A stretch of DNA of 64,000 nucleotides from Enterococcus pallens ATCC BAA-351 (GTDB taxonomy: Bacteria > Bacillota > Bacilli > Lactobacillales > Enterococcaceae). Below, piece after piece: positions 1-43,380 of this stretch (positions are counted from its first letter, which is position 1; every line of letters begins with the position of its first letter). The notes under the pieces are model-generated. The model had not been told where the DNA came from and made no database searches. It worked only from the letters and a program-made list of their open reading frames with translations. The position numbers and the translations under genes were made by a program. The stretch lies in NCBI RefSeq assembly GCF_000407485.1, contig NZ_ASWD01000002.1, forward strand, positions 620,001 to 684,000, given 5' to 3'.

Positions 1-530
1 AAATAAGCGAGATCGGTTTCGTCGATCGTTTTTTGCTCCGTGATGACATACTCCAAATAATCGGATAAATAGCGCAAATAAATTTTTTGACCAACCTTCG
101 CCTGCTGCAATTTCCCGAAAAGCAGATCCGAGACGCCCACATGATGTCCCAGAAGAACAAGATTATTACGGCGGGGATCACGTTTGGGATACATCGATCC
201 GGCGCCGTAAATCATCTGCTGCTGGCTCAAGCCTGAGAAGATCGGTGTCACCAAGTCGATCGAAGGCAGTTGGATTTCCCCGATACTTTCCAGATTTTGC
301 GGACTGCTCTCAGCAATCTCACGCAATGTAGGCGCATCGATCCGATCAAAGGGTATGTTCTCGATTTCCTTCGCCTGATTGATCTTGGTGATGGTAGTAT
401 GAGTCGTTTTTTCAACAAATACCAGATCCTTGATAATTGGAAAAAATACCAGCAGCAAGCCGATATAAGTCAGCAGCAATAAAATGATCTTGAGTAGACT
501 ATTCTGCTTTGTTTTCCTTGTCTTCTTCAT
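1..530 (-). CDS. Sortase, class A-type (partial, C-terminus off the window)
   Basis: Last gene of the WxL surface operon. The visible 176 residues start at ATG 530, overlapping the 3' end of the DUF916 gene by 32 bp, which suggests translational coupling. A short basic N-terminus (KKTRKTKQ) is followed by one membrane helix at about residues 13-33, then an extracellular sortase fold with the segment IQLPSIDLVTPIFSG and the conserved LGHHVG stretch, where the first His fits the catalytic His of sortases. The catalytic Cys and Arg lie outside the window. N-terminal anchoring and the GH-H motif fit class A. From context it probably attaches the small IPRTG protein at the head of this operon to the wall; that pairing is inference. 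Sortase assignment is firm, subclass less so. Confidence 0.85.
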   Translation of the reverse strand, partial: MKKTRKTKQNSLLKIILLLLTYIGLLLVFFPIIKDLVFVEKTTHTTITKINQAKEIENIPFDRIDAPTLREIAESSPQNLESIGEIQLPSIDLVTPIFSGLSQQQMIYGAGSMYPKRDPRRNNLVLLGHHVGVSDLLFGKLQQAKVGQKIYLRYLSDYLEYVITEQKTIDETDLAY

Positions 531-1602: not shown

Positions 1603-1634
1603 TACGCTTTTCTCCTTCTATATGTAAACAAAGC

Positions 1635-1657
1635 AAGATTCGTCAAAGACGAATCTT
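1635..1657 (-). terminator. Hairpin between WxL gene and DUF916 gene (attenuator-like)
   Basis: Perfect 10-bp stem (AAGATTCGTC / GACGAATCTT) with a 3-nt loop, in the 79-bp gap. The minus-strand continuation is only moderately T-rich, so partial termination or an mRNA processing site are both possible. Confidence 0.55.
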
Positions 1658-1681
1658 ACTTGATGTATGATCTGACACAGC

Positions 1682-2473
1682 TTAAGGTGCTGGTGTACCT
1701 GAGTTTCCTGGAACATCCGTTAATGTCCAAGTTAATTTCGTTGAATATTTTTCCGCGTATTTCGTTGTTGAGCCTGGAACAGCTAATTGGATACTATCCG
1801 CACCAGATGCTTCATCGGTACCCCAGTCATTTAGGAAAGTACCCGCACCTTGACCCGCTGCTGCTGACATTACTGTTACCGCAGCGCCTGGGTTTGTGTC
1901 ATCGCCAGGAACTAATGTGATCGTAGCTGTTGTAGTTGGCTTTGGCGAATCAGAAGCGGTTTGGATATTCGCGTTTTTCATAGTGATTTCCGCGCCTTTT
2001 AGCTCATGGTTCTTATCGCTTTTGAATTGTGCATCCTGAGCCAAAGTCAACGTCCAACCTGTTTCAGTTCCGCGATCGTCTGTTACTTGGACGTAGTTCG
2101 GACCTTTTTTATCTGTACCAGTTGGTTTGCCATCCTCACCTAACAAATGATAAAGCTGAGGTGCCGCTTTATAGACTTGGTCAGTTGAGGTGATTTTTTG
2201 TTGACCGAAATCTAGGCTTGAAGCAAAGTCGATAGATAATGGACCTTTTGTTCCTGGATCTGGCTTGCCATCTGGATCAGTTGGGTCAACTGGATCGACT
2301 GGGTTTACTGGATCAACGGGATCAACCGGGTTTGTTTGGTCATCATTTGGTACGAATTCGATCACGCCATTTGAATGATACACGCCGCCATCTGCCGCAA
2401 AAGTTGTTACCGGCGCCGCTGCTAATGATCCTAAGATCACGGTTGATAAGAATAATTTAGAAATGTTTTTCAT
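1682..2473 (-). CDS. Small WxL-domain surface protein
   Basis: 263 residues. Signal peptide about 1-27 (TTFA-ADGG), then the short motif YHSNGVIEF, an acidic proline linker built from PVDP/PTDP repeats (about 50-75), and a C-terminal WxL domain carrying the two hallmark motifs GWTL (near residue 139) and TWTLTDVPG at the C-terminus. WxL domains bind peptidoglycan non-covalently. Closest relatives in the window are the WxL proteins at 7391-8176 and 8226-8957, with the same layout, so these are likely paralogues by duplication. The gene is 23 bp downstream of the giant WxL gene and belongs to the same operon. Confidence 0.95.
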   Translation of the reverse strand: MKNISKLFLSTVILGSLAAAPVTTFAADGGVYHSNGVIEFVPNDDQTNPVDPVDPVNPVDPVDPTDPDGKPDPGTKGPLSIDFASSLDFGQQKITSTDQVYKAAPQLYHLLGEDGKPTGTDKKGPNYVQVTDDRGTETGWTLTLAQDAQFKSDKNHELKGAEITMKNANIQTASDSPKPTTTATITLVPGDDTNPGAAVTVMSAAAGQGAGTFLNDWGTDEASGADSIQLAVPGSTTKYAEKYSTKLTWTLTDVPGNSGTPAP

Positions 2474-2496
2474 GCTATATGCCTTCTTTCATTTGT

Positions 2497-5400
2497 TTAG
2501 TTATTGTTTGGAACATCTTCCAATGTCCAGGACAAGGTTCCTTTATAGTTGCCGACTTTTTGCTTGTTGGCAGGGACGGTCAGCTTGATTCCTTTTTTAC
2601 TGTCTTTGCCCCAGTCTTGGTTGACAACCTCTTCCCCATCATTGGTGAATTTCTTCTCCTCTACCTTAACCTGCTCTGTGCCGATCGTGGTGTCGCTGGT
2701 GCCATCCTTTGAAAAGGTTAGCCCATCTGCTAGAGAATCATTTCCATCTGTCAATGGTGAAGTTTGGGCAACCATTAAACGCCATGTCTTCTTGCCTGCT
2801 CCACGAGTATCGCTGACAACGAGATTCCCTTTTAGAGTGGGCCAATAGGTTGCTGTTTTGTTTGAAACCTTTTGCGTTCCAAAATCCATCGCACTTGGTA
2901 CTTCTTCCAGCTTCAATTCCCCTGAAATCTGAACATTCACTTGTTTTTCTACATGCTTTCCGTTTAAATCATAGGAATAAGTAGTCGGAATATTCTTGAT
3001 GATTTCAGCGGCGGTGGTGTTTTTGATACTGTCAAACGTCGTCTGCGGCAAGCTTGGCGCAGCATTCGGCGTGTCATCCGCAAAAATCACCTGAGCTTTT
3101 GTATGGGTATTAAGTTCATCGATAGATTGTAATGCATTGGCATCCGCGAGACTGAAACGTGCATCCTGCGCATAAACGGCAAATGAACGATCGTCTGAAA
3201 CCGCGCTGTCATTAGGAACAATAACAAGGTTCGCTGTTACTTCCTTTTTGTTTGTGTCAGATGAGCCAACACTGTAATGGATCGGTTGTTTTCGATAGGT
3301 TTCATTTTCCGCTAACGGCTTTTGGATAGTCGCCAAGACATCAGGAGTAATGTCTTCCTTCAATAATGGCCGCCCTGAAGCCTCCATGATCTTCATCACG
3401 TCCTCTTTGGTCGCTAATTTGCTAGCTTCCTGCTCTGTAACGATGACATTTTTAGCCGTCAGTTGCGCTTCATTTGAATATTTCACTTTCACCTGATAGC
3501 TGTATTCTCCATCAGGCACTTGCCAATCGACTGGATCCGTCGTAGTGCTTTCCTTTAACGTATCAGGCTGACTATTTAGTTTCGAGGAAACAATATTTCC
3601 GCTGTATAGCCAAGAACCGGTTGCCTTATCGGGAGCAAAGCTCAATTTAGGCTGTTGGCCCGTTTTGAAAGGAACAACTAACCGTCCTTTTTGAACTTCT
3701 TTTCCAGCAACCACTGTTCCCCAAGCAGAGATAGTCAATGGCGCGTTGTTTTCCTTGACTCCTTGAACGTCGTGAGTGATCGCGCCTTTTCCTTCAGCGA
3801 TTCCAGGATTTTCAACCTCATAATCAATCACTGAACCGGGAATCATCACACCATAGCCATTTGCATCTGATTGAACATCGTTATCCCCGATATATGTTTT
3901 ACCTGTAGCTTTCTCAAAACCGGTAAAATTCTGCGGTGTGATTTTTTCCGCATTCGCCTTTGTTGGGTTAATGGTCAATACTTGGTACCCTTTTGTATCA
4001 CCAAACCAGGTTCCCTTGTTATTCACCAGTTTGCTTGTATCATCCGTATTTTTGATCCAAGTAAGACGGTCTTTCGACGCATCCGGTGTTTCAAAGTCCG
4101 AGAGATTGACCACGCCGGTTCCTTGAGGGGACTCCAGTGTGCCTTCATCTTCGACAGTCAGCTTTCCGCCAGAAATCAATTGCCCTGCCTTCGCAACGGC
4201 CAATCCGGCATTTTTAGTTAAATGGATGTCTCCAAACTCATTGTAGTTAGAGCCATGATTCGCAGCATTCGCTCCCTTACCATTCGAAATATTCCCTTGA
4301 TCCGCTTCAAGCTTTAGACCATTGGTTACATTCAATTGTGTAAAGTTCACGACACCTCCGCCATTTACCTTGATCGGAGTTTTCTGAATCACGCCAGTCC
4401 CATCAACATCCGTCCCAAAATTAAAGACAGATTTGTTGGTGCTGTTCTTGACGATCGTGTTGGTGAAATTATCCCCCTCTGATCCGCCAGAAAAGCCATC
4501 AATGCTGGCTGCTCCTTGGATATTCGCCGTAACATCGCGGAGAATCTTGCCGCCACTAATATTTGAATATTGTGTCGCATAGATATGCCCGATATTGGAA
4601 CCTACCCCTTGAATATTCATGGTGATTTTTCCATTTTTCGTATTCGTAGCCCTTGTTCCGCCATCACCATACACATTCGCTCCGGCTAATGAATCCACAC
4701 CATCCTTGAGATAGATATTCAAGGTGATCGTATTCTGTTCTGAGGTACCTAAAGAGGTTGTACCATTATAAGGTCTTCCGCCAGAGATACTTGTCCCGCT
4801 AGGAAGTTTAAAATCGCCCTGATAATTCCTCAAATCGATCGTTAAATTAGCATTTCCTAATAATTTCCCCGTATTCGTAATTCCCCCTGAAAAAGCGCTT
4901 GGTCCTTTCAATGGAGTACCAGAAAAGTCTCCGCCATAAATGAAATTATGTGAATCTCCATCAACTGTATGATCGGCGCCGGAACCATAGGATGCACCCA
5001 TGGATGCGTTGATGATTCCGTCATGTACTTCAACACCGACATCCCCGACGATTTTCTGATCATTCCAGCCGCCGCCAGATAAGAACCAGTCAACTTCACC
5101 ATAAATTACGATAGATTTAGTATTCCCATACACACGTTTGCCGGAATACCCCGCACCTTCAAGGGTGGAAACCATACCCGCGTTCATCTCGTTCGTCGTG
5201 GTTCCCTCGATGATGCCCGAAAAGCCTCCGCCGTATGTCCAACGAGCTAAATCATTGTTATGGATCGTCTTGGTATTTCCCCAAATGTACATGTTGGTCG
5301 CCCGAGCCGCGTTGCTTCCGCCGCCGCCGACAATATCAAAAGTACCGATTGCTTCTGTTACATAAGGCCTTTTATTTCGATAATCGATACCGTCCTTGTA

Positions 5401-7365
5401 TTGTCTGCCGCCAGAATTATAGACAAAGCCAGGACCGCCGACTTTTTTATCCGCACGGAGCGTTCCTACTTCAATCGTCGTATCGCCTTCGACATATCCG
5501 CCATAACCAGCACCTCTGGCATACGCGGTATTGTCGCCACCTTCACTAATCATTCCTTCTAAAATATCTGTGGTGATATTTCCATAGACTTTAAACCTGG
5601 CTGTTTTTTCTGCAAAAGCCTTACGATCTTGGGGGCTCATTGCATCATAAGCCGCGTCACTTCCGGTTTGGAGGTTGGCGACCTCTACATCCAGTCCAGC
5701 TCCGCCATTGACACTGCGAAGAGAGCCTTCATGATAAACGCCAGCTTTGATCGTATTGCTGATGGAACCCATAATCGTTCCTTCATTCGAATTCGCACCG
5801 ACAAAAGCCGCGGTACCATCTGAAAATTTACTGCTGTCAAGGTTCGTCGTGATTGCCGCCTGTCCTCGATCCGTTCCAATATTTCCTGAACGAGAGCCGC
5901 CATTAAAATCTTGTGTTAGGCTTGACCACTTGCCATAACCGCTTACCTTGTTTTGAATACCGCCATTGATATCTCCATATTCGACCCCGCCATAGAAGGT
6001 ACCTAATGAGAATTTCGTCGCGGGATCTTGGATATCGATAGTGGTAGACACATTCCCAGTCACATTCGCGTGATTCGCAGTCGTACCTTCGCCTCCGCCA
6101 TAATAATTCGTCAATGCTCCGTTAATGTTTTTTACGTTCACAGAAATGTTTCCATCCACCGTGCCTTGTTCTGCACCGCCAACCAAATCAGTAATACCAG
6201 CAGTGGTGTTATTGATGTTGATCGTAGGATTGCCTTTTAAGGTTCCACCAGCCTCATTCCCGCCATAAAAATGCCATAGTCCAGTTCCTGTACTATTCAC
6301 CGTAATGGTAGGATTGCCGCTGACATCCCCTTTGTCCGTTCCGCCATAGACTGAAGAAGTCGCCGGACCAGAGGCGCTGGCAGCTAACGTCAGATCATGA
6401 CCGTTGGTATAAATCGCCGATCCCGTATATTTAATATTTCTCAATTGGATATTGGTCCCAAAATGAACCGGATTCTCGAAGGTTAAGGTATTTGCACCAT
6501 TTGAATCCGTCGCGTCCACAGGATCATTGCTATTTCCAGTGATTGCCAGTGTATTGACTTTTCCCTGAAGCGCGGTAAAGGTAATATTTTTATCCGATAC
6601 GGTCGCTGGAACAGCCTTCGCGGTTGTCGCCTCACTTACTGAGAAGGATTTTCCGACATACAGTACGAAATCATTTCCACCGCCATTTGTATATAAATCG
6701 AATAATGCTGTTTTCAACCCTGTATCCGAGCTTTCATATTCTTTATACGCAGCGCCGTCACCAGCTGGGCTGGGTACAACGATGACTTTTGTCTTATCCG
6801 CGGCATTGATGACATCCTTGATCGAATCAGAGACAGCCTTTAAGTTAACTGCGGGTTTGTTTTCCTTGAAGACCGCGGAATAGACTTGATCTTGATCAAC
6901 AGGATTTTCTTCCAAATCTTCAATCGTGTAGGTTCGTGCGTCGGCTTTCCAGCCGACAAAGGCAGCTTCGTCCTGCTCAGAAAAATCCGGAACCTGATCT
7001 TTCGTGATGGAATCCTTTTCGTCAACCGAAACATTTTTCGCAATTGTTCCATCGGTAAATGGATGCTCTGCATCTGTTTCAAAAGAGACAGTAGCCAGCG
7101 CTGGCTCGGATGATTCCGATGCTGTCATAGACTCGGTAGAACTGGTAGAAGAAGATACATCTGAAGCAGACGTTGCCGCCTCAGATGATTGATTAGGCTG
7201 AGAGTTAGAATCTATTGTGCCTGTTCCACTCAGTTCATGCTCTTCAACAAGTCCATTTTTTGATTGTTCTTGCGAAGTTGACGTAGGAGAAGCTAGGCTT
7301 ACAATTGGCATATAGCTCATAAATATACTTGCCGTAACCACTGTAGTTAACACTTTCTTGTACAC
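2497..7365 (-). CDS. Giant WxL-domain surface protein with glycine-rich beta-repeat region
   Basis: 1622 residues, the large WxL partner of the cluster (LwpA/CscC-like). Order: signal peptide about 1-26; Ser/Thr-rich stalk about 55-90; an InlB/Listeria-Bacteroides-type module about 92-165 (FVGWKADA...YSAVFK); a long repeat region of about 900 residues in which units of roughly 35-45 residues each carry an aromatic or small residue followed by GG (YGGTDKGD, YGGNEAGG, VGGAEQGT, YGGVEYGD and so on), suggestive of a beta-solenoid; further beta domains; and a C-terminal WxL domain with TWRLMVAQ and the final SWTLEDVP. No LPXTG motif or C-terminal membrane helix, so attachment should depend on the WxL domain. 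Ligand unknown; by analogy a polysaccharide or host glycan. Confidence 0.93.
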   Translation of the reverse strand: MYKKVLTTVVTASIFMSYMPIVSLASPTSTSQEQSKNGLVEEHELSGTGTIDSNSQPNQSSEAATSASDVSSSTSSTESMTASESSEPALATVSFETDAEHPFTDGTIAKNVSVDEKDSITKDQVPDFSEQDEAAFVGWKADARTYTIEDLEENPVDQDQVYSAVFKENKPAVNLKAVSDSIKDVINAADKTKVIVVPSPAGDGAAYKEYESSDTGLKTALFDLYTNGGGNDFVLYVGKSFSVSEATTAKAVPATVSDKNITFTALQGKVNTLAITGNSNDPVDATDSNGANTLTFENPVHFGTNIQLRNIKYTGSAIYTNGHDLTLAASASGPATSSVYGGTDKGDVSGNPTITVNSTGTGLWHFYGGNEAGGTLKGNPTININNTTAGITDLVGGAEQGTVDGNISVNVKNINGALTNYYGGGEGTTANHANVTGNVSTTIDIQDPATKFSLGTFYGGVEYGDINGGIQNKVSGYGKWSSLTQDFNGGSRSGNIGTDRGQAAITTNLDSSKFSDGTAAFVGANSNEGTIMGSISNTIKAGVYHEGSLRSVNGGAGLDVEVANLQTGSDAAYDAMSPQDRKAFAEKTARFKVYGNITTDILEGMISEGGDNTAYARGAGYGGYVEGDTTIEVGTLRADKKVGGPGFVYNSGGRQYKDGIDYRNKRPYVTEAIGTFDIVGGGGSNAARATNMYIWGNTKTIHNNDLARWTYGGGFSGIIEGTTTNEMNAGMVSTLEGAGYSGKRVYGNTKSIVIYGEVDWFLSGGGWNDQKIVGDVGVEVHDGIINASMGASYGSGADHTVDGDSHNFIYGGDFSGTPLKGPSAFSGGITNTGKLLGNANLTIDLRNYQGDFKLPSGTSISGGRPYNGTTSLGTSEQNTITLNIYLKDGVDSLAGANVYGDGGTRATNTKNGKITMNIQGVGSNIGHIYATQYSNISGGKILRDVTANIQGAASIDGFSGGSEGDNFTNTIVKNSTNKSVFNFGTDVDGTGVIQKTPIKVNGGGVVNFTQLNVTNGLKLEADQGNISNGKGANAANHGSNYNEFGDIHLTKNAGLAVAKAGQLISGGKLTVEDEGTLESPQGTGVVNLSDFETPDASKDRLTWIKNTDDTSKLVNNKGTWFGDTKGYQVLTINPTKANAEKITPQNFTGFEKATGKTYIGDNDVQSDANGYGVMIPGSVIDYEVENPGIAEGKGAITHDVQGVKENNAPLTISAWGTVVAGKEVQKGRLVVPFKTGQQPKLSFAPDKATGSWLYSGNIVSSKLNSQPDTLKESTTTDPVDWQVPDGEYSYQVKVKYSNEAQLTAKNVIVTEQEASKLATKEDVMKIMEASGRPLLKEDITPDVLATIQKPLAENETYRKQPIHYSVGSSDTNKKEVTANLVIVPNDSAVSDDRSFAVYAQDARFSLADANALQSIDELNTHTKAQVIFADDTPNAAPSLPQTTFDSIKNTTAAEIIKNIPTTYSYDLNGKHVEKQVNVQISGELKLEEVPSAMDFGTQKVSNKTATYWPTLKGNLVVSDTRGAGKKTWRLMVAQTSPLTDGNDSLADGLTFSKDGTSDTTIGTEQVKVEEKKFTNDGEEVVNQDWGKDSKKGIKLTVPANKQKVGNYKGTLSWTLEDVPNNN

Positions 7366-7390
7366 GTTCTCTCGCCTCTTTCTGTCTTAC

Positions 7391-8176
7391 TTAGTTACCT
7401 GGAACGTCAGTCAGCATCCAGGTCAAAGTCGTTTGATACTTCACCGCGTCTTTAGGTGTCGCACCTGGCACGCTTAGGCTGACATCTTTTGTTACATTGA
7501 CATCTTGTTCTTTACCGTCTTTATCCTTTTCCTTCACTGACTCGACTTTACCCCAATAATCCTCCCAAGTTCCGGCACCGGAATCCGCCTTCGCAGACAT
7601 TACCAATGATTCAGAACCATCAGGGTTTAAGGTGATTTCCTTTGCTTCAGGAGGTGTTACTCCTTTTGCATTTGAAGTAACGGTCGGTTTTTTGACAGTG
7701 ATTTGCGAACCATCTAAAACTTTGTTCAACGTAGTAGTTGTCGCAGTTAATTGTCCATCTTGTTTGACCGTCAAAGTCCAGCCCGCATTAGTTCCGCGAT
7801 TATCAGAAACTTGTACATAGTTTTCCGTATCGGCATGACCATTTCCGTAGTGCTGCGCACGTGCATAGTAGGTTTGGTCTTTATTAGAGATTTTATTCAA
7901 ACCAAAATCAAAGCTGGATGCATAGTCGATTGATAATGGACCGTTTGTTCCTGGCTCTGGTTTTTGATCCGGATTGGTTGGATCAACGGGATTAACGGGA
8001 TTTTCTGGATCAGGGTTTTCTGGGTCCACCGGATCAGTTTGACCATCGTTAGGGACAAATTCAACGACTCCGTGTGAATGATATTCTGAGCTGTCAGCAG
8101 CAAATGCCGTGGTGCTGACAGTGGTTAATGCAATTGCGCTCAAAGCGACAATGCTTAATAATTTAATATTTTTCAT
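7391..8176 (-). CDS. Small WxL-domain surface protein
   Basis: 261 residues. Signal peptide about 1-26 (TAFA-ADSS), N-terminal motif YHSHGVVEF, a PVDP/ENPDP linker, then the WxL domain with GWTLTVKQ and the terminal TWMLTDVPGN. The linker and the following segment GPLSIDYASSFDFG nearly repeat those of the WxL protein at 1682-2473, so the two are probably duplicates flanking the giant gene. Second WxL gene of the operon, 49 bp after the preceding one and 25 bp before the giant one. Confidence 0.95.
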   Translation of the reverse strand: MKNIKLLSIVALSAIALTTVSTTAFAADSSEYHSHGVVEFVPNDGQTDPVDPENPDPENPVNPVDPTNPDQKPEPGTNGPLSIDYASSFDFGLNKISNKDQTYYARAQHYGNGHADTENYVQVSDNRGTNAGWTLTVKQDGQLTATTTTLNKVLDGSQITVKKPTVTSNAKGVTPPEAKEITLNPDGSESLVMSAKADSGAGTWEDYWGKVESVKEKDKDGKEQDVNVTKDVSLSVPGATPKDAVKYQTTLTWMLTDVPGN

Positions 8177-8225
8177 TGAGCATACTCCTTTAGTACATCA
8201 GAATTTAAGTGATTATTCACTCGTT

Positions 8226-8957
8226 TTAATTGTTATTGCCTGGTGTGCTGGCTAATGTCCAGTTCAAGGTTGTTTTATATTCCTTCGCTAATTTCACTGT
8301 TTTACCAGGTACATCTAATTCAATCGCTTTTTTACCAGTATCTGCGTCGTTACCAAATCGGTAGACCCAAGTACCTGCACCTTTTGTTTTTTCAGCCGTG
8401 ATACCAGCCGCTTCTTGACCAGGTGTCAAATCAATTGAAGCTGCGACAGTTCCCGATGCGTAAGTATCGCTGCCAGAAAGCCCCGCGATAGCCGCCGTCT
8501 TGATTTTTAGCGCCGCTCCAGTCAGTTCATCGCCATCAGCTGTTTTGAATTGCTCTGGTTGAGTAACAGATAGTGACCAACCTTCCAATGTCCCGCGCTT
8601 ATCCGTCACCTGAACATAATTAGGTTTTTCAATCGTAGGTTTTCCTTCGCTATCTTTGAATTGATCCAATTGTGCGAAATACGTTTGATCAGTTGTTGAT
8701 ATTTTTTGGGTCCCAAATTTCCACTGAGAAGCATAGTCGATTGATAATGAACCGCCTACTGGAGTTGGTGGGTCAACTGGGTCAATCGGAATATCTGGAT
8801 CTTCTGGATCGACCGGCGGTGTAACATCATCCCCCGCTTCAAAATTAATCGTTCCCTGAGTTGGGTAAGTCCCGCCTTCAGCAGCGAAAACCTGCGAAGT
8901 GTTTGCCGCCAGGCTTAGTAATAAAGCCGCTGATGCTAAAAATACAGTCTTTTTCAT
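8226..8957 (-). CDS. Small WxL-domain surface protein
   Basis: 243 residues. Signal peptide about 1-25 (QVFA-AEGG), N-terminal motif YPTQGTINF, a PVDPEDPDIPIDP linker, SLSIDYASQWKFG, and a WxL domain with GWSLSVTQ and the terminal NWTLASTPGN. Its ATG overlaps the stop of the upstream LPxTG-like gene (ATGA), so the two are translationally coupled. It is the most diverged of the three small WxL paralogues. Confidence 0.95.
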   Translation of the reverse strand: MKKTVFLASAALLLSLAANTSQVFAAEGGTYPTQGTINFEAGDDVTPPVDPEDPDIPIDPVDPPTPVGGSLSIDYASQWKFGTQKISTTDQTYFAQLDQFKDSEGKPTIEKPNYVQVTDKRGTLEGWSLSVTQPEQFKTADGDELTGAALKIKTAAIAGLSGSDTYASGTVAASIDLTPGQEAAGITAEKTKGAGTWVYRFGNDADTGKKAIELDVPGKTVKLAKEYKTTLNWTLASTPGNNN

Positions 8958-33516: not shown

Positions 33517-34443
33517 ATGGAAACTATTCTAACTGTTCAGCAGCTGAATAAAAAATACAAACAGCAATATGCCTTAAAGGATGTCTCACTACACATTCGC
33601 AAAGGAGAAATTTACGGCTTGATCGGTCGCAATGGCGCCGGTAAAACAACCTTGCTAAAGGCAATCACCCGATTAATTGCGCCGACAAACGGCCAGATTG
33701 CTTTGTTCGGTTCTTCTACCGATAAAGAATGGACCAACAGCCTAAAGCGTACTGGGGCGGTGATTGAAACACCCTCCGCCTACGATCAGCTGACAGCCGA
33801 ACAAAACTTAGCCTACTATTGCAAATTGCGCGGCATTGTTCAGTCAAAGCAGGTCATCAAAGAAACCCTAGAACTGGTGGACTTAACGGATACCGGCAGA
33901 AAAAAATATAAGAACTTCTCATTAGGGATGAAGCAAAAGCTGGGGATTGCCATTGCTATTTTGACTCGGCCAGACTTTCTAATTCTAGATGAACCGATTA
34001 ACGGCTTGGACCCAATTGCGATCGTCGAGTTTCGTCGTCTGATTAAACGCTTGAATGAAGAGCGGGGCATGACCATCATTATTTCCAGCCATATTTTAAC
34101 GGAGCTTTATCATGTGGCAACCCGCTTTGGGATTATTAACGACGGTCAGCTGGTGAAGGAAATTTCGAAAACTGAATTTGATCAGATGAATGATGAATTT
34201 ATCGTCCTGCAAACCAAGCAAATCCAGCAGGCCAGTCAATTTTTACAGGACAGCTTGCATTATGTCCTAAAGGTAGTTGACAAGAATACCATGCACATTT
34301 TTGGAGAATCCAATCAAGTCAATCACATCATTCAGGCGCTGGTTGAGGAACGAATTGTCATTGACGGCATTTACCATTCAAAACAAAACTTAGAGGATTA
34401 TTTCACCGAACTTGTGGGTGAATTAGGAGGAAACTTATCATGA
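33517..34443 (+). CDS. ABC transporter ATPase, BcrA/lantibiotic-immunity type
   Basis: 308 residues. Walker A GRNGAGKTT, signature NFSLGMKQKLGIA, Walker B FLILDEPINGLDP, switch His in SSHIL. The signature is typical of BcrA-like exporters for bacitracin, lantibiotics and similar peptides. Note the Ile in DEPINGLD. Overlaps the permease by 4 bp (ATGA). Faces a two-component system across a shared terminator. Confidence 0.93.
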   Translation: METILTVQQLNKKYKQQYALKDVSLHIRKGEIYGLIGRNGAGKTTLLKAITRLIAPTNGQIALFGSSTDKEWTNSLKRTGAVIETPSAYDQLTAEQNLAYYCKLRGIVQSKQVIKETLELVDLTDTGRKKYKNFSLGMKQKLGIAIAILTRPDFLILDEPINGLDPIAIVEFRRLIKRLNEERGMTIIISSHILTELYHVATRFGIINDGQLVKEISKTEFDQMNDEFIVLQTKQIQQASQFLQDSLHYVLKVVDKNTMHIFGESNQVNHIIQALVEERIVIDGIYHSKQNLEDYFTELVGELGGNLS

Positions 34444-35213
34444 TTAATACCATTCGAGCAGATTTTTATCGTTTATTTCATTCAAAGGGCTTTTACATCA
34501 ACCAGCTGCTTTTAATTGGCTTAGTCGTGCTCTCAGTCGGCACCGAAGCGTTAGGCTCCGTCGGGATTTCCCATGACTCTCTCCAGCAGCTGCAGGAGCA
34601 GGTTACCCAAGCGAAGTGGTCGGGTGCCAACACTTTAATTGCCATGTCCACTATGTCCAGTTTTCTTATGTATTTCTGCTTGCCGCTTTTCGTTATGACT
34701 ATCGGCTTTGATCTATCAAAAAAGACCTTGAAAAACTTGATTTCATCTGGCATTTCTCGCGGGGAATTTTTCTTTTCAAAATACATTGTTTTCCTGGTGA
34801 CCATATTGATGCAATTTGCCTTTTATTATGGTTTATCCTTTTTAACGGCAGCCATCAAAAATGGCGTAGGGGATTTTGGGGTCAATTACTTTGAAAATTT
34901 TTTCCGTACCTTAGGTGTACAGTATTTATCCATTAACGCAATCTTTGCTTTTGGTTTACTGGCTCTGTATCTATGCTTCTCTAATATTGCAGCCGTTCTA
35001 GCTGTCGTGATTTTGCCGATTGCAACTGGAATTATCACTATCATCTATTCTAAGGTAAAAGTTCTGCAATATATAAGCTTCCAAGGCAGCATGGATTCTG
35101 CTTGGCTAAGTCTTCCTGACAACTTTTGGTTAAACACCATGATTGCAGCTGTTCTAGTAATTATTTGCTGCGGCACGCTTTCCCTCATCTCCTTTAAGAA
35201 GCGAGATCTATAA
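34440..35213 (+). CDS. ABC-2 family permease, BcrB-like
   Basis: 257 residues with about six membrane helices. Starts with a short cytoplasmic segment (IRADFYRLFHSKGFY) common in lantibiotic-type ABC-2 permeases, and has the loop DLSKKTLKNLISSGISRGEFFFSKY. Forms an exporter with the ATPase directly upstream. Substrate probably an antimicrobial peptide; inference from the ATPase type and the neighbouring two-component system. Confidence 0.88.
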   Translation: MINTIRADFYRLFHSKGFYINQLLLIGLVVLSVGTEALGSVGISHDSLQQLQEQVTQAKWSGANTLIAMSTMSSFLMYFCLPLFVMTIGFDLSKKTLKNLISSGISRGEFFFSKYIVFLVTILMQFAFYYGLSFLTAAIKNGVGDFGVNYFENFFRTLGVQYLSINAIFAFGLLALYLCFSNIAAVLAVVILPIATGIITIIYSKVKVLQYISFQGSMDSAWLSLPDNFWLNTMIAAVLVIICCGTLSLISFKKRDL

Positions 35214-35219
35214 AAACAG

Positions 35220-35248
35220 GAGGCTGTGACGGTTATCGCCACAGCCTC
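35220..35248. terminator. Bidirectional terminator between exporter and histidine kinase
   Basis: Stem GAGGCTGTG / CACAGCCTC with T-rich flanks on both strands, in the 38-bp gap between convergent genes. Confidence 0.88.
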
Positions 35249-35251
35249 TCT

Positions 35252-36142
35252 TTATTTCCTGCTTAACTCCCAAGTAATTTCTAAACAAAACTGTTGGTCC
35301 TGAGCCTTCATGGAGAAAAATCCTTGCGTCAATTCAACCAGCTCTTTCGTAATGTACAAGCCCAATCCCGAAGATTTTTCCGTTTCAGACATATTCTCTG
35401 AATAAAAACGGCTGGTCAGCTTTTCGAGATTTTGAATTTCCTGCTGACTCTGATTGCAGATGGTTACATAAGCCCGCTTATCATCACTAGAGAGCTTAAC
35501 CGTCAGCTGCTTTTCCCCATGCTTTAAAATATTGCTGAAGATGTTCTGGAAAATCCGCTGCAAGATTTCTGGATCATTTTCGATCAAACAGCCTTCCTGA
35601 ATAGCCACCTCTGCCTCAAACTGCTGCTCAGTCAAACTACTATAATAATTTAACAGGTTTTCGGTTAATGCCTGCGAAAGATCCAGCTGCTGAAACTTAG
35701 GCTGGACATTGGCCTCCAATAAATCTTGATATTCCAGCAATACCTCGACCCGCTGAGAAACTGTCGTTAAATTCTTTTGGATTTTTGCTAGTCGTTCCTG
35801 TTCCTCCGGCAGCTCCTTTATCAAGGTTTGCGTGAAGCCGCTGGCAATTGTTAAGGGTGTCCGAATGTCATGGGTAATATTATGAATGGCTAAATCCAGC
35901 GTCTTTTTCTCCTGCTGATTAAGAATGCGACTCTCCTGTAGCTCGTTAAAAATCTGGTTTACCTCATGAATTAACGGGTCCAGCCCCTTTTGATGTTGGG
36001 AATTCATCAAAACAACGTTCGTTTGACTGACTCGCTTCTCTTCAATCTCTTTTGCCAGACTGCGAAGGCTCAAACGCAAAACAATATAACGATAAGCCAA
36101 AAACACAGCTGCCAACGTACTAAAAATTGCTAAATAGCTCAT
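35252..36142 (-). CDS. Sensor histidine kinase
   Basis: 296 residues. One N-terminal membrane helix (about 2-22), a coiled linker, H-box THDIRTPLTIASGF with the phosphorylated His, N-box NIFSNILKHG and G-box SGLGLYITKELV. With almost no extracellular domain it resembles intramembrane-sensing kinases of peptide-resistance systems. Its ATG overlaps the regulator's stop by one base (TAATG). The adjacent exporter is a likely regulated target. Confidence 0.93.
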   Translation of the reverse strand: MSYLAIFSTLAAVFLAYRYIVLRLSLRSLAKEIEEKRVSQTNVVLMNSQHQKGLDPLIHEVNQIFNELQESRILNQQEKKTLDLAIHNITHDIRTPLTIASGFTQTLIKELPEEQERLAKIQKNLTTVSQRVEVLLEYQDLLEANVQPKFQQLDLSQALTENLLNYYSSLTEQQFEAEVAIQEGCLIENDPEILQRIFQNIFSNILKHGEKQLTVKLSSDDKRAYVTICNQSQQEIQNLEKLTSRFYSENMSETEKSSGLGLYITKELVELTQGFFSMKAQDQQFCLEITWELSRK

Positions 36143-36819
36143 TATTCACCTGCCAGCTTTACACCGACAGCCCAGACGGTTTCGATGTACTCATTCTCAG
36201 CATCCAGCTGGCTGATTTTCTTACGCAAATTACTTAAGTGGGTGTTCAAGGTATTATCTCCTGGCAAATAGCTTTCCTGCCAAACCTGCTCATACAGCTG
36301 TTCCTTTGTAAAAATCTGCTTAGGACGGCTCATTAACGTTTTCAAAATCTCAAATTCCTTTTTCCCTAACCGCAGCGACTGGTCCCCTGATTGGATGGCA
36401 AAAGAATTCTCATCCAGTGTGATATTTTTATAGCATAAACAGGGTTTCTCTGTTTCAGCAGGCTGAGCACTTCTCAGCTGAACCATCACTCTGGCACGGA
36501 CTTCATCTAAATCAAAGGGCTTGGTAATGTAATCATTGGCGCCATTCAGCAAGTAATCACTAACAGTCTTTTTATCACCTAAGGCCGTAATAATGATTAC
36601 CGGCACGTTACTGCTCTGACGAATTTCCGCTAACACCTCTTCACCGTTTTTCCCCGGCAGCATAATATCCAGCAACACTAAATCGATCGCTTCATAACGA
36701 AACAGCATCAGCCCCTCAGTCCCCGAAAAAGCCGGAAACACCTCATGCTGCTCCTTCAATAAATCCTGTAAAATTTCATTGATATCGTTGTTATCTTCAA
36801 TAATTAAAATCTTGGCCAT
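36142..36819 (-). CDS. OmpR-family response regulator
   Basis: 225 residues. Receiver domain with acidic pocket IEDN, phosphorylated Asp in LVLLDIMLPGKNG (about residue 53), ITALGD and KPFDLDE; winged-helix DNA-binding domain with TLNTHLSNLRKKI near the C-terminus. Co-transcribed with the kinase. Confidence 0.95.
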   Translation of the reverse strand: MAKILIIEDNNDINEILQDLLKEQHEVFPAFSGTEGLMLFRYEAIDLVLLDIMLPGKNGEEVLAEIRQSSNVPVIIITALGDKKTVSDYLLNGANDYITKPFDLDEVRARVMVQLRSAQPAETEKPCLCYKNITLDENSFAIQSGDQSLRLGKKEFEILKTLMSRPKQIFTKEQLYEQVWQESYLPGDNTLNTHLSNLRKKISQLDAENEYIETVWAVGVKLAGE

Positions 36820-38131: not shown

Positions 38132-39601
38132 TTAGTTCTGCAAGCTTAATTTCTGCCCCTCCAGCAAATACCCCTCGTCTGCGACCCGCTCCACAAAATA
38201 CGAATCATGGGAAGTAAACAATACGGTTCCGTCATAAGCCTGAAGCAGCTCCTCCAAAGCTTCAATCGTTGTCAAATCAATAAAGTTGGTCGGTTCATCT
38301 AAAATCAGCGTATTAGACGGTTGAATGAACACCAAAGCCAGTGAAACTCTGGTCGCCTCACCACCACTCAACTCAGACAATGCTTTGGTAATATCCAGTT
38401 GAGAGAAGCCGAGCCTGTTCAGCACGCTGCGGACAATTGGTTCGGAATAGCTGGTTTGCTTCATCAAATACTGCAACAGGCTCTCAGTCCCACTATATTT
38501 GTAATCCATCTGACGATACATTCCCAAGACTACTTTTGGAGAAAGAATGATTCCCTCTCCGTTGGCTGCAATCTGGTTTAGCAAGGTGGACTTGCCCACA
38601 CCATTGTCGCCAATAATGGCGATTTTTTTACCTAATGGAAATTGGAAATCACAAGTCTCAAGCAGGATTTTGTCTCCTGGCTGCAGTGTTACCTGCTCTC
38701 CACGAATAGGAAATTTGTTGTGCAGCTCCAATGACTGGCTCTTAGGAAAAGCAATCCTTGGTTTTCCGTCCAGTGCTACTGCTTGATCCAATTGTGCCAA
38801 ACGAGATTCCATCGCTTTAGCTGATTTTTGCAGACCTTTTTGAACGGTGTCTTTTTGCTTAGAGGAGGACAAGCGATCCGGCCGAACGTTTTGCTGCTTT
38901 TTCTTAGCAGATACCTTTTCGGCTTTAGCTGCCTGTTCTTTTTTCTTGGCAATGGCTGCTTCTATTTTACTTTTTTCTTTTTGATACTTTTCAGCTGCTC
39001 GGCTCTGCTCCAACTGCTCAGCTTCTTTTTGCTGCTTATAGTCTTCATAATTGCCAATGTATTCGGTGACTCGTCCATCCTTGATTTCCCAAATGGTGGT
39101 CGCTAGCTGATTCAGAAAATAGCGGTCGTGGCTGACAAAAATCAAGGTACCATAGTAATAGCGCAGCTCCTCAATTAGAATATCGACACCCTTGCGATCT
39201 AAATGAGTCGTTGGCTCGTCCAGCAGCAGACCCATTTGATAAGTGGACAACACCTGCGCCAGTCGAAGCTTAGTAGCTTCACCCCCGCTTAAGGTTGCGA
39301 CGTCGTTTTTAGGGATCTTCAACCGTCCCATTAATTCCCAATCCATACTCTCGGAATCCGTTACTTCTATCGTTTCGGCAATTTGCGAAAAGTAGTTAAA
39401 GCTGGTTTCTCGCTGAACAGTTCCTACTTCTGGAGCCAGTTCTCCTTGAATTATTTTTAGTAAGGTAGATTTTCCCGACCCGTTGTCGCCGATAATGCCG
39501 ATGCGGTTATTCTCGTAGGCGCTCAACTCTTCAATGTGCAGCACATCTTTTGCGCCAAAGCTTTTTTGAATATTGGTTAATTTGATTGCTAAAGTTTCCA
39601 T
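38132..39601 (-). CDS. Msr-type ABC-F ribosomal protection protein
   Basis: 489 residues, soluble. Two ABC domains: GDNGSGKST and LSGGEATKLRLA in the first, GDNGVGKST and LSGGEATRVSLA in the second, with LLDEPTTHLD and ILDEPTNFID as Walker B motifs. A long Lys/Glu/Ala-rich linker (about 190-265) is the interdomain helix pair that reaches the ribosomal tunnel. Length and layout match Msr proteins such as MsrC of E. faecium, which displace macrolides and type B streptogramins. A leader peptide with terminator lies upstream, which supports drug-inducible expression. The spectrum is inference; Lsa/Vga-type would be the alternative. Confidence 0.88.
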   Translation of the reverse strand: METLAIKLTNIQKSFGAKDVLHIEELSAYENNRIGIIGDNGSGKSTLLKIIQGELAPEVGTVQRETSFNYFSQIAETIEVTDSESMDWELMGRLKIPKNDVATLSGGEATKLRLAQVLSTYQMGLLLDEPTTHLDRKGVDILIEELRYYYGTLIFVSHDRYFLNQLATTIWEIKDGRVTEYIGNYEDYKQQKEAEQLEQSRAAEKYQKEKSKIEAAIAKKKEQAAKAEKVSAKKKQQNVRPDRLSSSKQKDTVQKGLQKSAKAMESRLAQLDQAVALDGKPRIAFPKSQSLELHNKFPIRGEQVTLQPGDKILLETCDFQFPLGKKIAIIGDNGVGKSTLLNQIAANGEGIILSPKVVLGMYRQMDYKYSGTESLLQYLMKQTSYSEPIVRSVLNRLGFSQLDITKALSELSGGEATRVSLALVFIQPSNTLILDEPTNFIDLTTIEALEELLQAYDGTVLFTSHDSYFVERVADEGYLLEGQKLSLQN

Positions 39602-39642
39602 GATTTCCCTGCTCTCCTTTTGGGAAAAGAGCGCACAAAAAA

Positions 39643-39665
39643 AGAGATAGTCTGGTACTATCTCT
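39643..39665 (-). terminator. Attenuator terminator in the ABC-F leader
   Basis: Stem AGAGATAGT / ACTATCTCT with a five-base loop, followed on the minus strand by TTTTTTTG. It lies between the leader peptide and the ABC-F gene, 42 bp before its start codon. Confidence 0.92.
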
Positions 39666-39714
39666 AGCCATTTCTATTCGAACAGGAAAAAAGTATAGAC
39701 TCATCCCTTGAAAT

Positions 39715-39761
39715 CGCTCTTCCCAAGACTTTTGAATGTATTCAATTAACTATTCAAAAGT
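39715..39761 (-). promoter_or_regulatory. Alternative leader stems upstream of the ABC-F gene
   Basis: Stem 1 pairs 39728-39736 with 39753-39761 (ACTTTTGAA / TTCAAAAGT) and covers the end of the leader ORF. A long-range stem pairs 39715-39726 with 39620-39633 (CGCTCTT.CCCAA), enclosing the terminator and ending at the ABC-F ribosome binding site. A ribosome stalled in the leader would disrupt stem 1. Confidence 0.7.
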
Positions 39762-39790
39762 ACGTTGCGCAATTTCATTGATGCAGTCAT
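39746..39790 (-). CDS. Leader peptide MTASMKLRNVLLNS (macrolide-stalling type)
   Basis: 14 codons with ribosome binding site GAGGAG upstream of ATG 39790. The start MTASMKLR closely resembles ErmD-type leaders (for example MTHSMRLR), whose +X+ motif (here K-L-R, residues 6-8) stalls ribosomes bound to macrolides. A terminator and alternative stems follow, then the Msr-type ABC-F gene. Stalling would be expected to favour transcription into the resistance gene. Confidence 0.88.
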   Translation of the reverse strand: MTASMKLRNVLLNS

Positions 39791-39874
39791 GGCTTTAGCT
39801 CCTCACTTGGTTGTTTGATACCTTAAGCCTAGCGTATTCTCTGACAAAAGTAAAGTTTTCCGCCAGACAAAAAA

Positions 39875-39900
39875 AGTGCGCACCTTTTACAGTACGCACT
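39875..39900 (-). terminator. Intrinsic terminator of the LPKTG adhesin gene
   Basis: Stem AGTGCG / CGCACT, extended by weaker pairs, followed by a TTTTTTT tract on the minus strand; 9 bp after the stop codon. Confidence 0.88.
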
Positions 39901-39909
39901 CAAATTGTT

Positions 39910-42900
39910 TTAGAGATTACTGAACTTTTGTTTTCTTAACAGGAGAACAGCTGCTCCAACAATTAAAATTCCTAAAGCAGTGATCAACACTGGATTCGCT
40001 CGTTCTTCTCCCGTTTTAGGCAGCGTCTTGCCTTGAGCAGCAGGTGCTGTGCTGCGCTGTACAGTGTCCGGCAGGCTTCTGACTGTGGCTGGTGTTGTTA
40101 TGACACCTGTGCCTCCGCCAGTTGCTGAACCAGCTCCGTCACCGGTTGTTGGCAAGCTGTCTTTCACATAAACATAGGTAATGGTTTGTTCTTGCTCCTG
40201 ATAAGTGCCATTCGCATTTTCAGGCGTTTCCTTTACCTTCCAGCCAGTAATTGCTTTAGCGGTCGTTTCATATTTTTCGCCAATGATGCCTGTTTGCTGT
40301 TCAGTGTCAGCTAGTTCATTGCCGGCTTCATCCACGTAGCGAATTGCGATGGTTCCCTTATTGCTGTAAATGTAGGTGACTATTTGTGGCTCCAAGGTGT
40401 ATTTGCCCGCCTTATTGCCTAATACTTCCTTCAATACATATCCATCAAATTTCTTTTCTTCGGTCTGGTAATCTGAATTGACGGCACCAGATAAGAGAGC
40501 TGGATTCGCTAATTGCTTGCCTTCTTCGCTTAAGTAATTAACGAGTACCTTACCTTCTTGTTTCCGGTAAATCACAGTTACCTCTTGGGTCTTCTCGGTG
40601 TAGAAGCCGCTAGTTAAGCCTTTGATTTCCTTTAACGTATAAGAATCGATTGTTTTGGTAAACAGCTCCAACGGAATCGCTGTGTCGATTGGCTGTTCAT
40701 CTGAAAAGTCTTCGGCAATTTTCTTGCCGGCTTCATCCTGGTAATGAACAATCAGCTTTCCTTTACTCACATTTTTCTGATAAATGTAGGTAACCTTCGT
40801 AATTCCCTCGGCATATTCGCCGACCTCAGAGCCTTGAACTTCCTTAAGGGTGTAGCCTTCAATTTTCTTAGAAGAAGTGGTATAGGACTTGCCCACCTCA
40901 GCAATCGTCACTTCACTGTTGCGCAAAGGATGACCATCCTCGTCCTGATGCTCAACTACCAAGACACCTGTTTGTTTTCCGCTGTCTTTTTCAGCATAAA
41001 TCAAGGTCACTTCCTGATCGGCGGCTGTGAATTTCCCGCTGACAGCGCCAGTGATTCCCTTCAATACATACCCATCGAAGGCTTTCACCTCAGCAGCATA
41101 ATACTCATCCACAGCTCCAGTTAATGTCTCATCATCAGCTAATGGTGTGGTATCTTCCTTCTGATAGTGGACGATCACTTGGCCTTGTGCCGCTGGATCT
41201 TTCGTATAAACGTAGACAACCTTCGTTATTCCTGCAGCATACTTTCCATTGGGTGCGCCTTGCACTTCTTTGAAGGTGTAGCCTGGAATGTCTTTTTGCT
41301 GGGTCGTATAATCGGTGTCAATTTCTCCCATCGAAACCTCATCGCCAGCCAATGGTTTGCCTTCTTCGTCTTGATATTGAGCCAAGACAGTTCCTTTTTC
41401 TTTTACCGTCTTCGTATAAATCAAGGTAATTTCCTGCGGCTGATCACTAAAGATACCAGTAATTGAGTCGCCTTCCTTTACCCCGGAAAACACGTAGTCA
41501 TCAATTTGCTTAATTGATGCATGGTAAGTTTCTCCTAAGGCACCTGTTAACGTTTCATCTGGGCTGATGCTGACCAGCTGTTTATTTTCGTCGTAGGTCA
41601 TGTAGTGGACGATTACCGGCTCTGATTTTTTCCAAACAGCATAAAGCGTTTCATTGCCTTTAGGGATGGTGATCGAATTGCCCTCCGCATAAGTTGGGTC
41701 AGGGTCCTTGGCTGCTTCATCCTTTGACCAGCCAGCAAATTGATAGCCTTCTTTGGTTGCTTTCAGGTCAGTACCTGCAGGAATTGACTGGTTCAAATCC
41801 TTGTAGCCTACTTGATAGTAAGCAGTGGGCTGTGTCCCCTCATAGTAAATGGTACCTTCATATTTAGCCAGCTCCGTACCAAGATCAAAAATCCCGCCAT
41901 TGCTGTCATATTTAATCCAATCAATTTCAACCGATCCAATGTCAGCCTTCGCCGTTCTTGGCAAGTCCCGCTGATCTACAAATACACCCCACAGATTATC
42001 TACCTGGTCATCAGCGGCTTTTTCAGGAGCAATTGGGACAGTCGGTAAAACGATCGCATCACTAGCAGTGCCTGCTGTGATTTTGTTGTAATTGTCCACT
42101 AACCCTACTGGCGCTGTTCCGAAAACATCCGTCATAGTTGTGGTGCTTGCTGTTCCATTGTCATACCCAATGTTGGTTTCTAAATCACCGGTACCAGCGA
42201 TTGAGGTAGCATCGGCAATATTGTTTTTGCTTGCCGTTCGGGATTTATTGCCGACAAATAGATTGTTGGCATAACGTCCAGCAGAAACATTCGTTATATA
42301 GCCTGAGCTTCCAATGGCACCCCCATCGTAAACAGCTTCGTTTTCCACAAAGCTGTTATTGACATAATCAATGGCCGCTTTTCTGCCTTGAGTCATTCCG
42401 CCATTGGCATATATCTGAATGGCCCCGCCGCTGTTTCCTGAAAGATCCTGTCCCAAAGCTTTATTTTGGTAGAAGGTATTGTTCTTGAACAGCACTCCGC
42501 TGTCAATGTTGTCATTAGTTTGTATCAGAATCGCACCGCCATCATCTCCGGCAATGTTGCGTACAAAGGAGTTGCTGTCGAATAAAATCTGCGTGCCGGC
42601 TACCGTATTAAAGAAGGCGATAGCCCCACCATCCGCCAGCTTCGCTTTTCCGCTGGTAATCGTTTCTACCGATTTATTGCCTTCAAAGTAATTGTTGGTA
42701 AAGCTGAAGGTTGCGGCACTGCTAGGCTGGAAGAAATAAATCGCCCCACCTTCACCACCGACATTGCCGGTTCCAGCATAGGTGGTTTCATTGTTTAGAA
42801 ACTGACAATTACTGGCAGAAAAGTTAGCAGAATACCCTTTACAGGCAATTGCTCCCCCAGAATAACCAGAGCCGGTATTCTTATTATTGGAAAAGGTACA

Positions 42901-43380
42901 ATTAACCAATCGGGTATTCCCTGCCGTGTAAAAGGCAGCCCCATCGTCATAAGATTGAAAATTATTCACTTTGGTATTTTCTAAAATGAACTCACCCTTG
43001 TAACCAGAGATAGCTAAGGCGCGTGCATTATTACCCAATCCTTCCAGATTCATATTTTTCAAGGTTAAGGTTGAGCCGGCAGCTCCCGTGCCGCTGCCGT
43101 AGGAAAACAATTGCTTTCCCGTAGTAGATTGCAAGGTCAGGCCATTCCCGTTTACCACCACTTGATACGGCGACTCCTGCAAAGCAATCGTTGTATCAAG
43201 ATCCGTTGGAAACGAGCTGTCCAAGGTAACGGTTCGATCACTGGGTGCATTGTTCACCGCATCCTGCAAATCTGCAACCGTAGTAACCGTCATTTCATCC
43301 GCAAACGCTTTCTGTCCTGCCACGCCGAATGAAAACAGCAGCAGGCCGATTCCTAACAATCCTTTAATCCTTTTATTCAT
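39910..43380 (-). CDS. Cell-wall-anchored adhesin with beta-helix head, InlB-like module and MucBP repeats
   Basis: 1156 residues. Signal peptide about 1-28; an N-terminal parallel beta-helix region (about 30-450) with recurrent GGAI/GGAIA and NNxF motifs typical of polymorphic outer-membrane/pectate-lyase-like helices; an InlB-type (Listeria-Bacteroides) module ending in FAGWSKDEA...YAVWKK; seven MucBP-type repeats of about 65 residues (VIVHYQ...DETLTG...VTLIYT); and the sorting signal LPKTGEE (1120) with membrane helix and RKQK tail. A second LPTTGD motif at 1076 is not followed by a helix. MucBP repeats bind mucin in lactobacilli, so host mucus adhesion is likely. Single gene with its own promoter and terminator. 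Confidence 0.94.
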   Translation of the reverse strand: MNKRIKGLLGIGLLLFSFGVAGQKAFADEMTVTTVADLQDAVNNAPSDRTVTLDSSFPTDLDTTIALQESPYQVVVNGNGLTLQSTTGKQLFSYGSGTGAAGSTLTLKNMNLEGLGNNARALAISGYKGEFILENTKVNNFQSYDDGAAFYTAGNTRLVNCTFSNNKNTGSGYSGGAIACKGYSANFSASNCQFLNNETTYAGTGNVGGEGGAIYFFQPSSAATFSFTNNYFEGNKSVETITSGKAKLADGGAIAFFNTVAGTQILFDSNSFVRNIAGDDGGAILIQTNDNIDSGVLFKNNTFYQNKALGQDLSGNSGGAIQIYANGGMTQGRKAAIDYVNNSFVENEAVYDGGAIGSSGYITNVSAGRYANNLFVGNKSRTASKNNIADATSIAGTGDLETNIGYDNGTASTTTMTDVFGTAPVGLVDNYNKITAGTASDAIVLPTVPIAPEKAADDQVDNLWGVFVDQRDLPRTAKADIGSVEIDWIKYDSNGGIFDLGTELAKYEGTIYYEGTQPTAYYQVGYKDLNQSIPAGTDLKATKEGYQFAGWSKDEAAKDPDPTYAEGNSITIPKGNETLYAVWKKSEPVIVHYMTYDENKQLVSISPDETLTGALGETYHASIKQIDDYVFSGVKEGDSITGIFSDQPQEITLIYTKTVKEKGTVLAQYQDEEGKPLAGDEVSMGEIDTDYTTQQKDIPGYTFKEVQGAPNGKYAAGITKVVYVYTKDPAAQGQVIVHYQKEDTTPLADDETLTGAVDEYYAAEVKAFDGYVLKGITGAVSGKFTAADQEVTLIYAEKDSGKQTGVLVVEHQDEDGHPLRNSEVTIAEVGKSYTTSSKKIEGYTLKEVQGSEVGEYAEGITKVTYIYQKNVSKGKLIVHYQDEAGKKIAEDFSDEQPIDTAIPLELFTKTIDSYTLKEIKGLTSGFYTEKTQEVTVIYRKQEGKVLVNYLSEEGKQLANPALLSGAVNSDYQTEEKKFDGYVLKEVLGNKAGKYTLEPQIVTYIYSNKGTIAIRYVDEAGNELADTEQQTGIIGEKYETTAKAITGWKVKETPENANGTYQEQEQTITYVYVKDSLPTTGDGAGSATGGGTGVITTPATVRSLPDTVQRSTAPAAQGKTLPKTGEERANPVLITALGILIVGAAVLLLRKQKFSNL

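Follow-up and report, generated by a model that had tools for sequence, protein, structure and literature searches.

The window, by which we mean the whole 64,000-nt stretch of DNA that was analysed, lies within a 5.44-Mb genome, and the closest relatives at its ABC-F locus are from Enterococcus species. The locus is encoded on the minus strand, where a gene for a 489-aa Msr-like ABC-F protein (38132-39601) follows a surface-protein ORF with an LPXTG anchor and seven MucBP stretches in the domain search (39910-43380). The surface-protein gene has its own terminator at 39901-39874, as found by the terminator scan, and the attenuator elements described below lie in the gap that separates this gene from the ABC-F gene (39601-38132), also on the minus strand. 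A consensus scan of 39560-39920 found no sigma-70-type promoter, and Rfam at gathering thresholds gave 0 matches across the whole window. Elsewhere in the window, a run of secreted proteins encoded on the minus strand at 499-8957 looks by eye like a WxL-type surface-protein cluster, and at 33517-36819 an ABC transporter pair (plus strand) sits beside a two-component pair (minus strand), by eye like a peptide-antibiotic sensing and export module.

The ABC-F protein has ABC_tran in two stretches and an ABC_tran_Xtn linker. It scored 506.4 bits with the NCBIfam model of ribosomal protection-like ABC-F proteins (NF000355, cutoff 380) and 658.7 bits with the Msr model (NF000168), formally below the cutoff of 680; given a score just under this threshold, the gene is therefore called Msr-like. 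The top PDB sequence match was 5zlu_EE (1.4e-114; PDB name 'Macrolide efflux protein'), which we take to be MsrE on the ribosome. The putative function of the product is that it probably protects the Enterococcus ribosome from macrolides. No second Msr-like gene was found in the same genome, where the next match was 30% identical, and a relative at E <= 1e-120 was detected in 8 of 20 genomes of the genus (own genome counted).

Upstream of the ABC-F gene is a 14-codon leader ORF (MTASMKLRNVLLNS; 39746-39790, minus strand). Its ATG is at 39790, with the ABC-F start 189 nt downstream, and its stop codon ends at 39746. A Shine-Dalgarno sequence, AGGAG (39799-39803, minus strand), lies 8 nt before the ATG, and the peptide carries the +X+ motif K6-L7-R8, as the initial annotation had described. 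A short ORF, its own Shine-Dalgarno sequence and an early R/K-X-R/K motif, the features of the macrolide-sensing +X+ leader class (ErmDL/MsrAL/MefEL), were thus all found. When 39602-39900 was shuffled 2000 times with dinucleotides kept, 30 of the shuffles contained an ATG ORF preceded by a Shine-Dalgarno sequence and with an early +X+ motif; taken by itself, the leader ORF is mildly unlikely and modest evidence, and it is conservation across the family that, in our judgement, makes the leader certain.

It had been proposed to look for the same leader before other enterococcal msr genes. The leader pattern was detected in 28 of 105 genomes of the same family, one copy in each, with a reversed-pattern control at 0 in every genome, and an Msr-type gene follows all 28 matches, the window included (the copy at L114 is in pieces). 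For detailed comparison, 20 of 29 sequences (the window and 28 relatives) were aligned (alignment A1), those with a too divergent or a longer leader region being left out (L015, L019, L024, L033, L047, L050, L052, L056 and L058). Across codons 2-8 of the 20 aligned leaders, pS was 0.437 and pN was 0.082 (ratio 0.19), and codon 4 was Ser or Ala in all 20, as ErmDL requires at position 4 for erythromycin. The Msr-type genes of L073 and L114, both from genomes of the E. casseliflavus group, are broken, and the leader MTASMKLWIDLLNS is still present at these two loci.

Between the leader and the ABC-F gene lies an intrinsic terminator with a U tract (39637-39665, minus strand), consisting of 9 perfect pairs (39665-39657/39651-39643) and then six U at 39642-39637. 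Two terminator-like sites came out of the region scan, one in the attenuator and one belonging to the upstream gene; shuffles gave a mean of 0.2. Across the 20 aligned sequences, 94.9% of the terminator cells were paired and both sides had changed in 6 of the 9 pairs and 24 cells, a level of covariation reached by 0 of 500 shuffles; this is the perfect hairpin at 39643-39665 of the initial annotation. A simple search found the terminator in 23 of the 29 sequences (the window and 28 relatives) and none in the other 6. Because of the pN/pS ratio of 0.19 and the covariation of the terminator, we conclude from the alignment that leader, terminator and Msr-type gene are a conserved unit under ongoing selection.

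The leader is also predicted to fold onto sequences further downstream. Based on the RNAfold MFE structure and the alignment, codons 1-8 pair with a downstream strand in an anti-antiterminator-like helix (39698-39788, minus strand; pairs 39788-39785/39701-39698, 39783-39780/39705-39702 and 39777-39769/39717-39709), which encloses a leader-end stem of 10 perfect pairs (39728-39761, minus strand; 39761-39752/39737-39728) already recognized in the initial annotation. The 8-pair core of the leader helix has 160 cells across the 20 aligned leaders, and 159 of them were paired; when the full 12-pair structure was slid along the alignment, pairing was 20-62%. The leader-end stem was paired in 95.0% of cells, with mostly invariant columns. 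The fold from the leader to the U tract had a z of -3.74, with 1 of 200 shuffles as good. Covariation of the leader helix in the 20 leaders was not above that of shuffles (100 of 500 reached the observed score), and its changes are mostly from G-C to G-U because the leader side is coding. As read from these columns, both structures, the helix and the leader-end stem, are maintained largely by sequence conservation, for which leader coding is part of the explanation. The helix is taken as the sensor part of the switch because a stalled ribosome would cover its leader strand.

The alignment also has a conserved stretch at 39706-39685 (minus strand), GGGATGAGTGTATACTTTT (GGGATGAGTCTATACTTTT in the window), which is readable as an ORF, MSVYFS. 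A second small ORF starting with the ATG in 39706-39701 (MSLYFF; MSVYFS in relatives) was considered and rejected; the stretch is more likely RNA structure than an ORF because the ATG is gone in 4 of the 20 aligned rows (L010, L011, L022 and L025). Masking of the leader Shine-Dalgarno sequence by 39701-39685 was likewise rejected for the window, where 403 of 500 shuffles did as well, and was good in 11 of 20 relatives (<=10 of 500 shuffles as good).

A candidate antiterminator strand, AAGGGATGAGTCT (39697-39709, minus strand; from MFE and alignment), is able to pair with 39653-39642. The resulting helix was paired in 84.4% of cells across the 20 sequences and showed no covariation (445 of 500 shuffles as high). 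When the leader was masked in the full-length RNA of the window, the antiterminator (AAGGGAU-AGUCU, 39709-39697/39653-39642) was the MFE structure with 5 of 5 masks; for an RNA ended at the U tract this was the case with 1 of 5 masks, and with a different 5' end the terminator was kept in the full-length stalled fold. In general, whether antiterminator or terminator prevailed in the stalled fold varied with the stretch folded and with the mask. Partition functions computed at the U tract gave the terminator of the window a probability of 0.97 when the leader was free and 0.93-0.94 when it was masked, and for most of the 19 remaining sequences of the alignment masking hardly altered this probability (in L025, whose terminator is misaligned, it was 0.25 throughout). 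The antiterminator probability at the same point was 0.04-0.05 in the window and about 0 in most others. The simple model in which 39709-39697 pairs with the terminator 3' arm thus loses at equilibrium in 20 of 20 sequences, and we keep this helix as a candidate only. When folding was followed on the emerging RNA, stalling did not consistently lead to capture of the terminator 5' arm; in the window, at the end of the arm, this arm was if anything more paired upstream when free (0.62) than when stalled (0.49). Because the terminator barely weakens at equilibrium, the argument for transcriptional antitermination is drawn from the conserved terminator and the published mef(E) case, not from folding energies; a kinetic effect of stalling on the terminator is possible.

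The annotated long-range stem that ends at the ABC-F ribosome binding site was recovered in the window, with 12 pairs, a 2-nt bulge and a duplex energy of -18.3 kcal/mol (39726-39715/39633-39620). Its 5' strand is TTGGGAAGAGCG (39715-39726, minus strand), and its 3' strand (39620-39633, minus strand) overlaps the 5' arm of a hairpin over the ABC-F Shine-Dalgarno region (39611-39632, minus strand; 39632-39625/39618-39611), which RNAfold predicted in the MFE structure of both the free and the masked RNA. In the window, none of 500 shuffled versions of the 5' segment and 1 of 19 foreign partners did as well as the long-range stem. The stem reached the level of <=10 of 500 shuffles in 9 of the 20 sequences; it was weak in several relatives and absent in L026 and L027 (490 and 476 of 500 shuffles as good, respectively).

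To place the leader among its relatives, 71 of 78 related loci were scanned for leaders, the seven loci L080-L086 being left out. Upstream of the ABC-F match, 29 of the 71 have a +X+ leader and 24 have Trp for the second basic residue (KLW, KIW, RLW or RIW; L012, L013, L021, L023-L025, L029-L032, L034, L036-L038, L045, L046, L057, L065-L068 and L071-L073). The remaining 18 have neither a +X+ nor a +XW leader by the scan criteria (L028, L035, L039, L041-L044, L048, L053, L054, L059, L061, L063, L064, L075-L077 and L079), and one of them, L079, has only 19 nt upstream. Two loci of this last group, L041 and L048, both from E. mundtii, have a small ORF in common, MWLFYLDQVFLNN, about 209 nt upstream. 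MTASMKLW was found in Enterococcus xiangfangensis, E. pingfangensis, E. casseliflavus and E. innesii, and MTAAMKLW in E. gallinarum and E. nangangensis. Outside Enterococcus, MTASMKIW or KLW was found in Lactococcus and MTASIRLW in Aerococcus, and MGIPRIW and similar leaders in Salinicoccus and Jeotgalicoccus. On a tree of 63 proteins, the distribution of the Trp label requires 7 changes, of which well-supported branches force at least 3; resolution is poor among the deep branches of this tree, and its long branches carry a flag (8 of the 71 proteins were dropped, 6 as short or broken, and L075 and L076 by choice). A one-base step separates the tree neighbours E. dongliensis (MKLR, CGG) and E. 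xiangfangensis (MKLW, TGG).

Based on these features, we consider it very likely that the region is a ribosome-mediated, macrolide-responsive attenuator that holds the Msr-like ABC-F gene off until a macrolide is present. On ErmDL, the ribosome arrests when its P site contains Leu7 and its A site Arg8 (accessible parts of PMC8298421 and PMC10314930); by analogy, a macrolide-bound ribosome on the window leader would arrest at the corresponding residues, L7 (P site) and R8 (A site). By masking leader bases to about +34, the stalled ribosome would disrupt the leader helix and, in part, the leader-end stem. This would leave 39717-39698 free to compete with the terminator, while 39726-39715, also released, could pair with 39633-39620 and thereby open the hairpin at the ABC-F ribosome site. 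Control would then probably have two layers, with read-through as well as better translation initiation, and the odds that the dominant layer is transcriptional or translational are about even. The initial annotation had proposed a macrolide-type attenuator before an Msr-like ABC-F gene, and this kind of device has good support from the comparison and from published relatives. Its mechanism was incomplete: the three stems that it joined into a switch are present but insufficient alone, the annotation lacked the helix in which the leader codons pair with 39717-39698 and which a stalled ribosome would open, and antitermination is not borne out by equilibrium folding.

The two layers could also be weighted very differently, with the terminator merely setting a low basal level and stalling freeing the ABC-F ribosome site via the long-range stem. 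We regard such a mainly translational switch as possible but rather doubtful. It would fit the presence of both the ribosome-site hairpin and its competing stem (strong in the window), the terminator that hardly yields to stalling at equilibrium, and the combined attenuation published for tlrB (yxjB) and vmlR (accessible parts of PMC6851288 and PMC9226507). However, many shuffles do as well as the long-range stem of several relatives, whereas the terminator is clearly selected, and the ribosome-site hairpin is still in the masked full-length MFE structure of the window. A conserved leader peptide that fits a macrolide-specific arrest sequence at the critical positions makes it unlikely that sensing is broader, with the helix opened whenever ribosomes are slowed over codons 1-8 by a drug (lincosamide, streptogramin B) or a stress (starvation) of any kind, even though several ways of compromising translation induce vmlR (accessible part of PMC9226507). 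Least probable by far is a relic leader before a gene expressed constitutively at a low level, a reading that the lack of a consensus promoter in 39560-39920 and the 18 of 71 relatives without a leader by the criteria used, one with only 19 nt upstream, would allow, but that the ongoing selection seen in the pN/pS ratio and the terminator covariation speaks against.

The macrolide-responsive attenuator may come with two types of sensor. The +X(W) motif is an erythromycin arrest motif in vitro, according to the accessible part of PMC6238534. ErmDL with erythromycin tolerates almost any residue at position 8 and only Ser, Ala or Gly at position 4; with telithromycin both basic residues are needed, and R8W relieves stalling (accessible part of PMC8298421). 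From these stalling rules, Trp leaders are predicted to be erythromycin-responsive and ketolide-blind. Tentatively, and at slightly less than an even chance, we suggest that more than one lineage has seen its msr leaders change between the +X+ form (K/R-L-R) and the +XW form (KLW, KIW, RLW, RIW) with the rest of the device kept, such that the +X+ forms, as in the window, would be inducible by macrolides and ketolides and the +XW forms by erythromycin-type macrolides, being blind to ketolides. The +X+ and +XW leaders thereby offer natural sensor pairs for testing the macrolide and ketolide stalling rules of ErmDL on leaders shaped by selection. A literature search, with most subscription papers outside its reach, found no paper with MTASMKLW, and the Trp variants may be in print.

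Leaders of this kind have been described before. Chancey et al. 2015 reported leader-dependent transcriptional attenuation of mef(E)/mel in S. pneumoniae, using mutants and RNA-seq, and Table 3 in the accessible part of that paper gives MTASMKLRFELLNNN as the leader of the enterococcal msr(C) gene and MTASMRLK as that of msr(A); the mef(E) leader is MTASMRLR (PMC4335068). The start of the window leader, MTASMKLR, is nearly that of all three; in the literature search, MTASMKL was found in print only in PMC4335068. The remark in the initial annotation that a +X+ leader is less common on an ABC-F gene fails because the msr(C) and msr(A) leaders were already tabulated there, and +X+ leaders stand at 29 of the 71 related loci. 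The text of PMC7724050, in which chromosomal transcripts were mapped for E. faecalis and E. faecium, does not mention msrC, macrolide, attenuation, leader peptide or uORF.

The likeness to the msr(C) leader of Enterococcus lies in the first eight residues and the Msr-type ABC-F target (PMC4335068, accessible part). At the one locus with the exact msr(C) leader, L058 from Enterococcus lactis, the ABC-F protein is 56% identical in the best segment, but the leader is 273 nt upstream, compared with 189 nt in the window, and the simple terminator search found none at L058. The mef(E)/mel system resembles the window in its MTASMRLR leader, intrinsic terminator and leader-dependent induction, but it controls an efflux gene together with msr(D), and its proposed antiterminator starts downstream of the leader and overlaps the terminator U tract, a pairing that was not found in the window (PMC4335068, accessible part). 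The ermD/ermK leader ErmDL (MTHSMRLRFPTLNQ) likewise has Basic-Leu-Arg at positions 6-8 and a small residue at position 4, whereas its target is an rRNA methylase and it has MTHS where the window leader has MTAS (PMC8298421 and PMC10314930, accessible parts). Fostier et al. 2023 described a different leader on msrD (PMC10314930, accessible part): MsrDL (MYLIFM) also places an Msr-type ABC-F gene under transcriptional attenuation, but the peptide is unrelated, stalls at termination and needs cladinose. In B. subtilis, vmlR, which is an ABC-F gene, and tlrB (yxjB), with the +X+ motif RYR, are under combined transcription and translation attenuation; their leader peptides and drugs are different, and NusG-dependent pausing was shown in those systems (PMC9226507 and PMC6851288, accessible parts). 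The attenuator type is therefore already known, and the window locus adds another case. Our comparison indicates that what was known as the msr(C)/msr(A) leader belongs to a larger conserved RNA device, of which it is the visible part, before chromosomal Msr-type genes in Enterococcaceae and neighbouring families; intrinsic macrolide tolerance in these bacteria is therefore probably drug-induced and can escape uninduced tests.
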